Assembly (NCBI RefSeq): GCF_009733815.1
Contig: NZ_WNXY01000007.1
Coordinates: 186,001-250,000 of the forward strand
From: Pseudactinotalea suaedae
GTDB taxonomy: Bacteria; Actinomycetota; Actinomycetes; Actinomycetales; Beutenbergiaceae
Reading direction: 5' to 3'
Length of the DNA: 64,000 nucleotides
Shown: piece by piece, positions 22,723-53,331 of the stretch
Numbering within the stretch: position 1 is the first letter of the stretch
How the letters are laid out: the number at the start of each line of letters is the position of its first letter
Translations under genes and position numbers: made by a program
Notes under the pieces: model-generated
The model's input: the letters and a program-made list of their open reading frames with translations, nothing else
What the model was told of the DNA's origin: nothing
Database searches by the model: none

Positions 22723-24813
22723 TCAAGCGAGCTCACCGGGCTCGGCCCGGCTGACCGAGATCAGGAGCTCGGCGTTCGAGCCGCTCTGCCGGATCCGGGC
22801 GAGCAGCATCTCGAGGGCCGCTTCCGGCTCCAGGCCACCGAGCACGCCACGCAGCTTGCGCACGGCGGCGAGCTCGTCGGCCGTGAGCAGCTTGTCGTCG
22901 TGCGCGGTGCCGGAGGCCAGCGGGTCGAGGGCCGGGAAGATCCTGCGGTCCGCGAGCGACCGCACGAGCCGGAGCTCGGAGCTCGCCGTGCCGCCGAGCT
23001 CCTCGAGGATGACCTCGTCGGTGGCCGATCCGGTCTCGACGGCGGCCGTGGCCACGATCGTGAGCGAGCCGCCGTTCTCGATGTTGCGGGCCGCTCCCAT
23101 GAGCTTCTTGGGCGGGTAGAGCGCACCGGCGTCGACACCGCCGGACAGGGCTCGGCCGGACGGCGGGGCGGTCACGTTGTAGGCACGCGCCAGCCGGGTG
23201 AGCGAGTCGAGCAGGATCACCACGTCCTGCCCCAGCTCGACCAGGCGCTTGGCCCGCTCGACGGCGAGCTCGGCCACGGTCGTGTGGTCGGCGGCCGGTC
23301 GGTCGAACGGCGAGGCGATGACCTCGCCGGCCACGGTGCGCTGCCAGTCGGTGACCTCCTCGGGGCGGCCGTCGACGAGCACGACCATGAGGTGGGCCTC
23401 GGGGTGGTTGGTGGTGATCGCGTTGGCCAACGCCTGCAGCGTGGTCGTGGCGCCGGCCTTCGGCGGGGTGAGCACGAGCGCGCGCTGGCCCTTGCCCCAC
23501 GGGGAGACGAGATCGACGACGCGGCCGGTGACCTCCCGGGTGCTGGTCTCGAGACGGATCCGCTCGTCCGGGTGCAGCGGCGTCAGGTCGGCGAACTCGG
23601 ACCGGGTGAGCGCGTCCTCGAGCGGCCCGCCGTTGATCGAGTCGAGCCGCACCAGGGCGTTGAACTTCTGGCGCTGGCTCTCTCCCTCGCGGGGCTGACG
23701 CACGGCTCCCGTGACGGCGTCACCGCGCCGCAGACCGGCCTTCTTCACCTGGCCGAGCGAGACGTAGACGTCGTTGGCGCCGGGCAGGTAGCCGCTCGTG
23801 CGGACGAAGGCGTAGTTCTCGAGCACGTCGAGGATGCCGGCGACCGGGATCAGGACGTCGTCCTCGAGGATCTCGATGTCCTCCTCGGAGCTGGTGCCCT
23901 CGCGCCCGGGCGTGCGCCGCTTCCGGTCGCGGTAGCGGTCCCGACCCCGACGACGCCGACCTGAGCGCTCGTCGTCGTCGCTGCCGTCGTCGCCGCCGTC
24001 GTTGCCGCTCTGCTCGGGCGCACCCTGCTGCCGGCCGGCGCGGCGGCTCGCGCGGGGCGACTCCTCGCGGGCGCTGCGCTCGGTGGGCTCCGGGAAGTGG
24101 ATGATCTCGTCGAGCGAGGCCATCTTCTGCTCGGACTCGTCCCCATGCTGGCCCTGCTCGGACTGCCGGTCCTGCTGGCCGCGCCGCTGCTCGGACTGCC
24201 GGTCCTGCTGACCGCGCCGCTGCTCGGACTGCCGGTCCTGCTGGCCACGCTGCTGCTCGGACTGCCGGTCCTGCTGGCCACGCTGCTGCTCGGACTGCCG
24301 GTCCTGCTGGCCACGCTGCTGCTTGGCCTCGCCGCGCTGGCCGCCCTGGTTGTCCTGGTTGTTCTGGTTGCTCTGGTTGCGCTGCTGACGGCTCTGCCGA
24401 GGCTGCTGCCCCGAGCGCGGCTCGCGCGCCTCCTCCTCGGTGCCCGTGGCCGGCGCGGCCTGCTGCTGGCGGGCGCGGCGCTGCGTCCGCTCCGCCTGCG
24501 GGGCCTCCGCGCGGTCGGGCTGCTGGGACTGCTCGGCCTGCTCGCGGCGCACGGGCTCCTCGGTGCGGGTCCCGTTCTGCTCCCGGCGCGGAGCCTCCTC
24601 GCGGGACGCCTCGATCAGACCCGGCTGCTCGGCGCGCGGCTGCTGCGCGTTGGTGCGGCGCTTCTCGCGGATCGCCTCGACCAGCTGCGGCTTGCGCATC
24701 TTCGAGATCCCGCTGATGCTCAGACGCCCGGCGAGCGCCTGCAGCTCGGGCATGCGCAGATCGGACAGCGACGCGGACTTACCGGGCGCTACGGACTCGG
24801 TGGTGTCGGTCAC
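22723..24813 (-). CDS. rho: Transcription termination factor Rho with replaced ATPase residues
   Basis: A 696-residue Rho. Order: an N-terminal Rho_N/SAP-like domain (about 15-50), a 230-residue Gln/Asn/Arg/Glu-rich low-complexity insert with an 11-residue repeat (167-221), the OB-fold RNA-binding domain (about 310-380) and the RecA-like motor domain (about 420-690). The motor keeps [23 protein letters not shown] and [10 protein letters not shown], but by comparison with E. coli Rho the Walker A lysine (K184) is A455 in PPKAGATTT, catalytic E211 is G482 in VDGRPEEV, the arginine finger R366 is A637 in SGTAHDD, and R-loop lysines 326 and 336 are A597 and G607. ATP-driven translocation is therefore doubtful although the locus is canonical. 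Confidence 0.9.
24151..24315 (-). repeat. In-frame 33-bp tandem repeat within rho
   Basis: Five tandem copies of a 33-bp unit encode [11 protein letters not shown] or its Arg/Gly-ended variants at residues 167-221 of Rho, inside the disordered insert. Copies are nearly identical at DNA level, suggesting recent slippage or unequal recombination, so copy number may vary among strains. Confidence 0.9.
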
Positions 24814-50848: not shown

Positions 50849-51682
50849 TCATGCGTCCTGCACGTCGCCGGGCGGCAGCGGTGGCGACCATGGGGTGGAG
50901 CGCTCGACCGTGACGTTGCCGCTGACGGTCGTCACGGTCGCCATGACGCGGTCCCCCGATCCCGCCTCGTCCACCCGCGTGACGCCGAAGCCGCTGTTGC
51001 GCTCACGCCCGTCGACCTTCACGCGCGCGGCGACGCCACGGACCTCGAGCTCCAGGTGCGCCTGCGTGGGCACCACGACGCCGACGTCGCCGGAGACCGT
51101 CGTCAGCGTCAGCAGCGACGCGCCGCCGCGCTGGCGCACGTGGATGTCACCGGAGACCGAGGTGACCGCGGCCCGTGGCAGCTCACCGTCGACCCGCAGC
51201 ACACCCGAGGCCCCGCTCACGTTCACCGGGCCGTTATGGTCCTCGACCTCGACGCTCCCCGAGGCGGTGCGCAGCTTGATGGCCCCGGTGGTGCGGACCA
51301 GCCGCGAGGGTGCGGACGCCGTCGAGACGTCCACATCGCCGGTGCTGCCGCTCACGACCACCGGCGCGCTGACCGTCGCCGCCGACAGGCTGACGCCGGA
51401 GCCGACGTGCAGCCGCACGACCGCACGGTCAGGGGTGTCGGTGGACGTCAGCCGTTTGATCCAGCCGTCCCAGCCGATCGAGGGGTAGCCGACGCTGACG
51501 CGGTCGGCCTCGGTGGCGATCTCCAGCGGCTGGCCGACGATCTCGGTGACCTCCACGACCACCCCGGGCTGGTCGCGCGGCACCACCTCCAATGCGCCGC
51601 CCACGAGCTGCACGCGCACGGAGGCGCCGTCGTCGCTGGTCACGGTGTCGGGGCCGGTGATGATGCGGGACATGGTGGTCAT
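50849..51682 (-). CDS. DUF4097 (putative adhesin-like beta-helix) protein
   Basis: A 277-residue protein made of repeated short beta strands with alternating Val/Thr/Ser (GSTGDVDVSTASAPS, TTGAIKLRTASGSVEVED, AVTSVSGDIHVRQRGG), the pattern of the DUF4097 right-handed beta-helix fold. There is no signal peptide or membrane helix. The function is unknown. The ATG overlaps the stop of the upstream oxidoreductase gene by four bases, so they are cotranscribed; an alternative start lies at 51673. Confidence 0.82.
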   Translation of the reverse strand: MTTMSRIITGPDTVTSDDGASVRVQLVGGALEVVPRDQPGVVVEVTEIVGQPLEIATEADRVSVGYPSIGWDGWIKRLTSTDTPDRAVVRLHVGSGVSLSAATVSAPVVVSGSTGDVDVSTASAPSRLVRTTGAIKLRTASGSVEVEDHNGPVNVSGASGVLRVDGELPRAAVTSVSGDIHVRQRGGASLLTLTTVSGDVGVVVPTQAHLELEVRGVAARVKVDGRERNSGFGVTRVDEAGSGDRVMATVTTVSGNVTVERSTPWSPPLPPGDVQDA

Positions 51683-52662
51683 GAGGCCGTGCCTTCCGAG
51701 GTGAGGACGATCTTGCCGAAGGACTCCCCGTCCAGGAGCCGCGCGAAGGCGGCGCGGACGGCGCTGTCCGAGCTCAGGTCCGAGGTGGTGTCGATCACGG
51801 GCGCCACACCGCTCGCCTTCATCATCGCGGCGAGCCGGGAGAGCTCGGCCCGGGTTCCCATCGTGGAGCCCACGACGCGAAGGCTGCGGAAGAACACCCG
51901 GTTGAGGTCGGCCGAGGGAGCGGGTCCCGAGGTCGCTCCGGCCACGGCCACCACGCCGCCGGGACGCAGCGAGCGCAGCGAGTGCCCCCACGTGGCCTCC
52001 CCGACCGTCTCGATCACGATGTCGACCGGCTGCACCCGCTCACCGCCGGCCACCGCGTCGTGGGCACCGAGGTCGAGCGCCCTCTCGAGCTTGGCGGCGG
52101 ACCGCGACGTCACGGTCACGTGCAGGCCCGCCGCACGCGCGAGCAGCACGGCAGCGGTGGCGACACCACCGCCGGCACCCTGGATCAGCACACGCTGCCC
52201 CGGGCGTGCGTCGGCGGCGTGGAACAGCAGCCGGTAGGCGGTCAGGTACGCGGTCGGCAGGCACGCGGCCTCGGCGAACGACATCCCCTCCGGCATCGGC
52301 ACCAGGTTGCTCGCCGGCACCGCCACCCGCTCGGCGAGCGTGCCCGGGTGCAGCTCGGAGAGCAGCGTGCGCCGCGGGTCGAGGGTCTCGTCGCCCTCCC
52401 ACCCGCGCGAGGAGATCACACCGTGGACGAGCACCTTCGAGCCGTCCGGTGCGATGCCTGCGGCATCGGTGCCCAGCACCATCGGCAGCCGGTCCCCCGG
52501 CAGCCCCACACCTCGCAGGCTCCACAGGTCGTGGTGGTTCAGCGACGCCGCACGAACCTGCACCCACACCCAGTCCGGCGGGACCTCGGGCTCGAGCTCG
52601 CCGATCCTCAGCCCGGCGAGCGGGTCGTCAGGATCCTGGGATGCCGCGTAGACACTGCGCAC
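51679..52662 (-). CDS. Zinc-binding-dehydrogenase-family quinone oxidoreductase-like protein
   Basis: A 327-residue MDR-superfamily NAD(P)H-dependent oxidoreductase. The GroES-like N-terminal domain has ASLNHHDLWSLRGVGLPG and VLGTDAAGIA; the cofactor site is VLIQGAGGGVATAAVLLARAAG. Structural-zinc cysteines are not evident, so it is closer to the zinc-free quinone-reductase branch. It reduces enones or quinones by family analogy. It is the first gene of a two-gene operon with the DUF4097 gene. Confidence 0.88.
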   Translation of the reverse strand: MRSVYAASQDPDDPLAGLRIGELEPEVPPDWVWVQVRAASLNHHDLWSLRGVGLPGDRLPMVLGTDAAGIAPDGSKVLVHGVISSRGWEGDETLDPRRTLLSELHPGTLAERVAVPASNLVPMPEGMSFAEAACLPTAYLTAYRLLFHAADARPGQRVLIQGAGGGVATAAVLLARAAGLHVTVTSRSAAKLERALDLGAHDAVAGGERVQPVDIVIETVGEATWGHSLRSLRPGGVVAVAGATSGPAPSADLNRVFFRSLRVVGSTMGTRAELSRLAAMMKASGVAPVIDTTSDLSSDSAVRAAFARLLDGESFGKIVLTSEGTAS

Positions 52663-53061
52663 CCAGCCAGCCTACGACGAACGCGAGGAGCTCAACGGTG
52701 GCGCGGGCTCCGCCGGTGACTTGCCGCCCACCCCCGCCCAGCACCGGTGAGTTAGCGCCCACACCCGCGAGGTACCGGTGAATTAGGGCCCACCGCAAGC
52801 CCTTCGGTGGGCCCTAACCCACCGCCACTGCGGGGACGTGGGCGCTAGGTCACCGACGCGGTCGGTGGACGTGCATGCGCAACCACGCGCGAGGCCGGGC
52901 CGCAGCCGAGCGTGCAGGACCGCCGTCGTGACAGCGGGCTGTGCGTCGCGCCCACCCAGAGACCGCGAGGAGCCGCAGGAACACTGGTAGTGCTGCACGT
53001 GGACAGCCACCGTTGGCACGCCCCATGCAGCTGGTCAGCCCAGCACGAGCTCCGATCCCTG
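52663..53061. other. Intergenic region with repeat array and no gene
   Basis: The longest gene-free stretch of the window, between the MDR oxidoreductase start and rsrA stop. Its first half holds the 31-nt-period repeat array at 52713-52855; the second half shows no convincing coding frame, RNA gene or terminator that I can recognise. Confidence 0.7.
52713..52855. repeat. 31-nt-period repeat array, three direct and two inverted copies
   Basis: Copies of a 19-nt core, consensus CCGGTGAnTTAGnGCCCAC, start at 52713, 52744 and 52775 (exact 31-base spacing). Inverted copies start at 52807 and 52838, again 31 apart. Cores differ at three or four positions; the 12-base spacers share little. Copy 3 and the first inverted copy form a perfect 13-bp hairpin (52783-52795 with 52805-52817, 9-base loop), which could end transcription of neighbouring genes. 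Confidence 0.8.
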
Positions 53062-53331
53062 TCAGCCCGCCCCGGAGGTGCGGGCACGGATCACCGTGAT
53101 CTCGGTGCGCACACGCAGACGGAGGGTCTCGGGTGCGACCTCGGAGCAGGACCGGCGCAGGACGGCGCGCAGCCGCTGCTCGAGCTCGGCCTCACCAAAG
53201 CACGAGGTGCACTCCTCGAGGTGCGCGCGCAGCCGGTGGCCGTCGAGCTCGCCGATCTCGGAGTCCAGGTACTCCTCGAGCTTGTCCAGCGCCTCTTCGC
53301 ACTGGCACCGCTCGCTGGGCTGGTCGCTCAT
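53062..53331 (-). CDS. rsrA: Mycothiol-system anti-sigma factor (RsrA family, zinc-associated)
   Basis: An 89-residue anti-sigma factor of the ZAS family. The redox-sensitive zinc site is [10 protein letters not shown] (HxxxCxxC, about residues 36-45), preceded by cysteines in ERCQCEEA. Oxidation of these cysteines releases the partner sigma factor in Streptomyces RsrA. It overlaps sigR by ATGA, the usual arrangement, so the pair is coupled. No gene follows downstream for about 400 bases. Confidence 0.93.

Follow-up and report, generated by a model that had tools for sequence, protein, structure and literature searches.

Dispersed head-on repeat arrays in Pseudactinotalea suaedae and a predicted nuclease as their probable partner

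Among the short repeats of bacterial genomes the REP type is the best known, and its spread is attributed to RAYT transposases. The BIME / REP sequences of enterobacteria are intergenic, often lie 3′ of genes, form hairpins and serve as targets of insertion sequences, and in the REPIN/RAYT system the core is imperfectly palindromic and carries a conserved tag at its base. According to the available part of PMC3116915, REP doublets form hairpins with their two copies at a constant distance around a variable middle, and orphans also occur; for REPIN biology we also drew on the available part of PMC8049555.

Here we describe a family of repeat arrays of Pseudactinotalea suaedae, starting from a single copy in a stretch of 64,000 nucleotides (the window). 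Going by the same part of PMC3116915, the arrays share with REPINs a short, chromosomal, extragenic core that forms inverted pairs at constant distance around a variable middle, as well as extra tandem arrangements, orphan copies and a partner gene beside matching cores. Dispersed extragenic inverted doublets at a preferred distance are present (22 of 24 at 30 bp, at least 21 sites), and so is a gene flanked by such cores, although it encodes an AbiEi/PD-(D/E)XK protein instead of a RAYT. Unlike the REPIN core, the array core is not palindromic, and as many as nine copies, all in one direction and 31 bp apart, make up an arm. The arrays also resemble BIME / REP in being intergenic, often 3′ of genes, hairpin-forming and an insertion-sequence target, but differ from them in core and geometry, in having no palindromic unit, and in that no REP-type transposase was found. 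For the Y1/RAYT-type transposase family (PF01797), none of 13 genomes searched had a match; this set included P. suaedae (G000) and its sister species (G001) and lay apart from Aeromicrobium and three further array-bearing genomes discussed below (G698, G643 and G621). A control run of the same search gave matches in five of 14 named genomes, and we rejected a RAYT/Y1 transposase as the mobiliser because PF01797 was absent from the 13.

No description of these arrays was recognised in the literature, as judged by titles and abstract openings, and none of six core words of 15-17 letters occurred in the literature text searched. The actinobacterial words searched do not occur in PMC3733652, and the available part of PMC12306157 gives repeat counts for one Arthrobacter.

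The window array and its copies in P. suaedae

The array occupies positions 52715-52854 of the window (Table 1), where five slightly degenerate 17-nt copies of the core GGTGNNNNAGNGCCCAC, three forward and two reverse, flank a 13-bp hairpin. The original prediction had described five copies of a 19-nt core, three one way and two the other, spaced by exactly 31 bases. All five copies are present, with the core taken as 17 nt rather than 19, and the spacing of 31 holds along each arm but not across the head-on centre, where it is 30 (start-to-start steps of 31, 31, 30 and 31). The perfect central hairpin was described correctly: in the sequence, TTAGGGCCCACCG and CGGTGGGCCCTAA form a perfect 13-bp stem that encloses nine bases. 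By its sequence and base counts, the core is not self-palindromic. The whole array folds with -86 kcal/mol (z -6.88), and 0 of 200 shuffles folded as well. In an intrinsic terminator the hairpin is followed by a U-run; a reading of the sequence found a four-T run directly 3′ of the hairpin on neither strand. Three sub-threshold matches of the hairpin to microRNA precursors, from a comparison with RNA families, were judged to be chance.

Table 1. Features at and around the window array (window coordinates)
Feature	Position	Strand	Remarks
Zinc-binding alcohol dehydrogenase / quinone oxidoreductase-like gene	51679..52662	-	Start codon 52 bp from array; outside element
Core copy 1	52715..52731	+	GGTGACTTGCCGCCCAC, most degenerate of the five
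Core copy 2	52746..52762	+	GGTGAGTTAGCGCCCAC, 0 mismatches to search pattern
Core copy 3	52777..52793	+	GGTGAATTAGGGCCCAC, innermost forward; 0 mismatches to search pattern
13-nt centre of head-on pair	52794..52806	.	CGCAAGCCCTTCG; across loci, fixed length and variable sequence
Core copy 4	52807..52823	-	GGTGGGTTAGGGCCCAC, innermost reverse
Core copy 5	52838..52854	-	GGTGACCTAGCGCCCAC
Flank common to array locus L029 (G000 C21)	52855..52999	.	Decayed terminator-like hairpin and 3′ end of Bax-inhibitor-like CDS
RsrA-like anti-sigma factor (zf-HC2; the name RsrA is from the original prediction)	53062..53331	-	Stop codon 207 bp from array; outside element

The idea that this is a dispersed actinobacterial repeat element, against which a lack of further copies in the genome was to count, is borne out: a search for such copies found many in the same genome, and related arrays exist elsewhere. 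With up to 2 mismatches, the core GGTGANTTAGNGCCCAC occurs 63 + 66 times in the 4.54-Mb genome, versus 3 + 3 times for the reversed control pattern, which puts it well above chance. These occurrences define at least 21 array sites, namely 25 head-on centres with sound cores at 20 loci (one of the centres split by an insertion) plus a 21st site, L026, which is cut by a contig end. Outside the 25 centres lie the two cores of L026 and one isolated core in a coding region (L017). Chance head-on pairs from the lenient scan were removed by the core filter before counting, and a three-mismatch core pair at C20:214323 stands outside the locus counts. Three of the 21 sites, L014 (C4:183-322), L027 (C21:250-451) and L026 (C20:319754-319801), come within ~500 bp of the end of a contig. 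Arrays may therefore have interrupted the assembly, and the genome may hold more sites than were counted.

Dispersal and geometry are both well supported. We analysed spacing at 22 loci of this genome (21 fetched plus the window), where the reversed pattern yields zero pairs. With no spacing preset, 81 of 90 same-direction neighbours less than 70 bp apart are separated by exactly 31; of the 24 head-on neighbours, the two that are not exactly 30 apart are at 61, which is one unit more. In unbroken chains the lenient core gives between 1 and 9 forward copies and between 2 and 5 reverse ones; a stricter core gives up to 8 forward copies. This 31/30 geometry is rigid while spacers and centres differ in sequence.

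Among 141 cores, positions 1-4 (GGTG), 10 (G) and 12-17 (GCCCAC) each carry one base in 91-99% of copies and position 9 (A) in 87%, whereas positions 5-8 and 11 vary; between loci, core identity is 0.80. Neighbouring spacers within an arm are 0.80 identical (47 pairs), but spacers in the two arms of one array are only 0.43 identical (19 pairs), compared with 0.45 between loci. Because spacers are alike within arms and not between them, the arms grow by local tandem duplication, each independently of the other. A CRISPR array has identical direct repeats in one direction and unique spacers; the head-on arms, the 80% likeness of neighbouring spacers and the dimensions (repeat of 17 nt, spacer of 14 nt) led us to reject CRISPR.

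With gene predictions from a simple codon-usage script, the 23 array rows (L017 left out) fall between same-direction genes in 12 cases, convergent genes in 6 and divergent genes in 2, with 3 at contig ends. None is inside a predicted gene, although at L012, L020 and L022 an outermost core and the end of a predicted gene share 5 bp. The arrays are often near the stop codon of the upstream gene, the window array being an exception. The 40 proteins encoded beside or inside arrays are of mixed function (five have no Pfam match and three are LacI-type regulators), for which reason a common regulon of the flanking genes was rejected. The original prediction had also noted that the window array lies beside the sigR-rsrA operon; it does, but we found no special meaning in this position, and neither G001 nor the congener G002 has an array there and the neighbours of other arrays are mixed. 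The adjacency thus looks incidental, and an operator of the SigR regulon was rejected on the grounds that the two congeners have no array at the window site.

At L013, the 13-nt array centre is split exactly by an element with an rve-type transposase (L013:5755-7015; G000 C3:145754-147014), which we read as IS30-like. The array L022 is similar, and set against it the element seems to have duplicated 3 bp of target; L013 and L022 also have ~54 bp of right flank in common.

The history of the window copy can be read in part from its surroundings. Synteny with G001 and G002 extends on both sides of the array, with 34 bp (G001) and 112 bp (G002) at the site versus ~400 bp in P. suaedae. Since the congeners carry no array here, it arrived in the P. 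suaedae lineage, unless it was lost in both of the others. To its right, the window shares sequence with L029: 191 of 255 positions are identical between L029:5627-5877 and window 52754-52999, including the last 55 bases of the Bax-inhibitor-like gene, and window 52883-52999 matches at 75% (E 6.4e-10). This match points to a locus of the L029 kind as the donor, and the carriage of flanking sequence is unlike precise transposition. At the Bax-inhibitor-like locus of G001 and G002 no array was recognised, and G001 has ~440 bp of other sequence there. A MITE has terminal inverted repeats with a target-site duplication; comparison of the window array with the array-free sites revealed no recognisable duplication around it. 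The terminator hairpin of the Bax-inhibitor-like gene (L029:5758-5805) resembles several sites in G000, G001 and G002 and perhaps belongs to a second, ordinary repeat family.

Related arrays in other genomes

The sister species G001 has 35 head-on centres, with 33 of 34 head-on steps at 30 and 34 of 41 same-direction steps at 31. The consensus of its dispersed inner cores is GGTGGCTCAGCGTCCAC, versus GGTGAGATAGCGCCCAC in P. suaedae, a difference that also holds at shared loci, though the picture is mixed at L068. Four of the 16 fetched G001 loci are orthologous to P. suaedae array loci (L066/L028, L068/L021, L069/L012 and L099/L013), so that some arrays are probably older than the split despite their different cores. 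At six G001 loci (L069, L066, L067, L091, L092 and L096), complete head-on units recur in tandem, the periods being ~62, 72, 84, 92 and 142-173 bp. In the congener G002, the searches turned up no array.

A generic head-on pattern, which has the step of 30 built in and detects close cores only, matched seven genomes among 396 of the order and five among 394 of the class, leaving 389 of each set without a match. The reversed control pattern matched ten of the 396 and ten of the 394, so lone matches prove nothing, and we treated the single match in G259 as chance. Four genomes of one genus, g15 (G028, G216, G327 and G380), are credible because their hairpins have a common outer palindrome close to CAACGCGG...CCGCGTTG. 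The g15 loci L072-L075, L077 and L078 are single intergenic hairpins of ~62 nt with a 30-bp head-on step, and in five of the six (L072 being the exception) the arms mismatch around core positions 10-11. We also accept as credible three genomes of another genus, g134 (G698, G643 and G621): their cores agree, and each has 31-bp arm steps, which were absent from the search pattern. A tandem pattern run over the named GTDB genomes returned one record, Aeromicrobium sp. 9AM, with copies in the order +, -, - at steps of 30 and 31; the same pattern had 0 matches in viral contigs, and a viral origin was rejected. Aeromicrobium sp. 9AM, the sister species and genomes from two other families all have arrays built on the same plan but with other cores.

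The gene bracketed by arrays

At 4 of 48 loci, two array centres are more than 400 bp apart (1071-1254 bp): L028 (G000), L066 (G001), L144 (G698) and L152 (G621). The 48 loci come from five genomes (22 from P. suaedae, including L013, L017 and L026 without a scored centre; 16 from G001; and 10 from G698, G643 and G621), with the six g15 loci and Aeromicrobium outside the set. At all four bracketed loci the gene between the arrays belongs to the same family, as judged by tblastn between genomes (E 3e-51 to 1e-115); the G698 protein is 41-53% identical to the other three, the G000 gene being in two pieces. Because L028 and L066 are orthologous and L144 and L152 have a common downstream typA-like gene (typA-, carD- and ispF-like identities were read by eye), these represent two independent contexts, in genomes of two orders according to their kinship labels. 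The association of nuclease and arrays thus comprises four loci in two genomic contexts, found via the arrays. In G698 and G621 the bracketed coding sequence runs at its 3′ end into the downstream array. The four fetched array loci of G643 (7.5-8 kb each) do not include the bracketed gene.

The N-terminal part of the protein is AbiEi-like: PADLOC AbiEi models matched two of three proteins (E 1.2e-8 and 2.6e-6), the G001 protein having no such match. The C-terminal part resembles DUF559-type PD-(D/E)XK nucleases, with an hhalign probability of 98.2 against a profile of 6 of 30 DUF559 loci, which were chosen by a motif that includes the nuclease signature, and a blastp E of 1.7e-18 to one of these six. 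The bracketed proteins of all four genomes contain D...E-Y-[DE]-G-x-x-H, which we take to be the signature of PD-(D/E)XK (DUF559-like) nucleases. Pfam gave sub-threshold matches to REase_MTES_1575 (E 0.026 and 0.045), NCBIfam gave none, and a PDB sequence search returned weak, apparently unrelated matches, the best to an ankyrin repeat (E 0.011). The G698 protein had no relative in viral contigs, plasmids or phages, a further ground for rejecting a viral origin.

The domain make-up of the bracketed gene matches that of DUF559 / AbiEi-domain proteins of high-GC bacteria, but ordinary DUF559 loci are without proper arrays. The bracketed genes are absent from the PF04480 matches and also remain below the MTES_1575 cut-off. 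We fetched 30 of the 35 PF04480 matches (3.1-3.3 kb each). None of these loci had a proper array; ten lenient head-on pairs were found in their ~96 kb, versus three in 51 kb of array-free window DNA. As no proper core occurred in head-on pairs at the 30 loci, the DUF559 family in general was rejected as the partner of the arrays. In G380, a weak PF04480 (DUF559) match and a g15 hairpin lie ~3 kb apart (C1:2869946-2870131 and 2873070-2873116).

In G000 and G621 the cores that bracket the gene are closest to the dispersed cores of the same genome (for G621, two dispersed cores were available for comparison), whereas those of G001 and G698 are marginally closer to the dispersed cores of G643 than to their own (0.774 vs 0.767 and 0.862 vs 0.853, respectively). 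Roughly two thirds of the way along, the G000 gene is interrupted by an in-frame TGA, and the arrays of P. suaedae may therefore now be an orphan population.

A proposed explanation and its rivals

The REPIN-like layout, found together with no RAYT in 13 genomes, suggests a REPIN-like family with the nuclease as its likely partner. On balance, and somewhat better than evenly, we favor the view that the window array is a copy of a dispersed, non-autonomous, extragenic family of this kind and that the predicted nuclease in the brackets, judging from the sequences, is probably its partner. The unit would be a head-on pair of non-palindromic 17-nt cores at a step of 30, with each arm extended by local tandem duplication into same-direction copies at a step of 31. 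The nuclease may recognise the cores, either as duplex or as an extruded hairpin, and cut DNA; repair copying would then seed arrays elsewhere between genes, at times together with flank of the donor, as with the window copy. Any consequence for the host would come second, for example termination of transcription in both directions between genes. The more specific proposal, in which the phased 31/30 arrays form a REPIN-like class that is both substrate and offspring of the bracketed AbiEi-wHTH / PD-(D/E)XK endonuclease and spreads by cut-and-repair copying with no HUH tyrosine transposase, is tentative, and we put it slightly short of an even chance.

The rigid 31/30 steps, the conserved core and the variable spacers, as read from the sequences, would also suit a host DNA-binding protein (nucleoid-associated or a regulator), in line with the protein-binding array of the original prediction. 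Spaced three helical turns apart, the cores would present one DNA face to its cooperative binding; the arrays would be maintained because they organise the chromosome or stand in the way of transcription, and the nuclease would have no connection with them. Such a protein could accommodate the intergenic position of the arrays, rarely between divergent genes (2 of 23 rows), as well as a core consensus that differs between G000 and G001, even at shared loci (mixed at L068). We nevertheless think it unlikely: no array was found in the congener G002 or, with a pattern that sees close cores only, in 389 genomes of each set (396 and 394), the window site has turned over, the neighbouring genes have no common function, and the bracketing of one gene family would be left unexplained. 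An ordinary mobile-element remnant or simple slippage product, with neither function nor dedicated enzyme, is very improbable. Expansion of the arms by tandem duplication (spacer identity 0.80 within arms), the larger tandem units of ~62-173 bp in G001 and the donor flank carried along all fit it, but cores and 30/31 steps are conserved in genomes of several families while spacers and centres have diverged, and slippage alone makes no head-on copies at many sites.

Rather unlikely, too, is that the arrays are bidirectional intrinsic terminators whose RNA hairpins end transcription of the preceding gene and which spread by local duplication. The strong folding (z -3.1 to -10.9 in nine folds, from eight arrays), the many arrays that closely follow a stop codon (of 23 rows, 6 lie between convergent and 12 between same-direction genes) and the single ~62 nt hairpins between genes in g15 agree with it. 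Hairpin clusters are proposed intrinsic terminators in the available part of PMC8355165, where several hairpins likewise stand in a row near stop codons; going by that part, the arrays differ in conserving a periodic core and not inter-arm pairing. In 25 arrays of G000, the innermost forward and reverse cores match each other no better than shuffled partners (0.814 vs 0.821, P 0.78), and at 15 G001 loci, with one centre per locus and L068 outside the filter, the excess is small (0.792 vs 0.763, P 0.057), so selection for pairing beyond the shared consensus is not clear. The conserved positions pair in any case, which makes recognition of a hairpin with an internal loop possible. Also against the terminator explanation, a separate terminator-like hairpin lies, by eye, between gene and array at the Bax-inhibitor-like locus and in Aeromicrobium, and up to nine same-direction copies would be needless.

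Arrays that bracket a predicted nuclease gene in four related genomes hint at an undescribed way of spreading short repeats in bacterial chromosomes. If the proposed reading is right, REPIN-like logic with a different geometry and a nuclease-type partner would suggest more than one evolutionary origin for the spread of short extragenic repeats, and the AbiEi/DUF559-like protein family would gain a first testable role, for which the rigid 31/30 steps provide a precise and cheap biochemical prediction.

Elsewhere in the window, a 33-nt unit recurs 5.2 times at positions 24154-24323, with 97% matches; this unit length is a multiple of three, and the repeat perhaps lies within a coding sequence.
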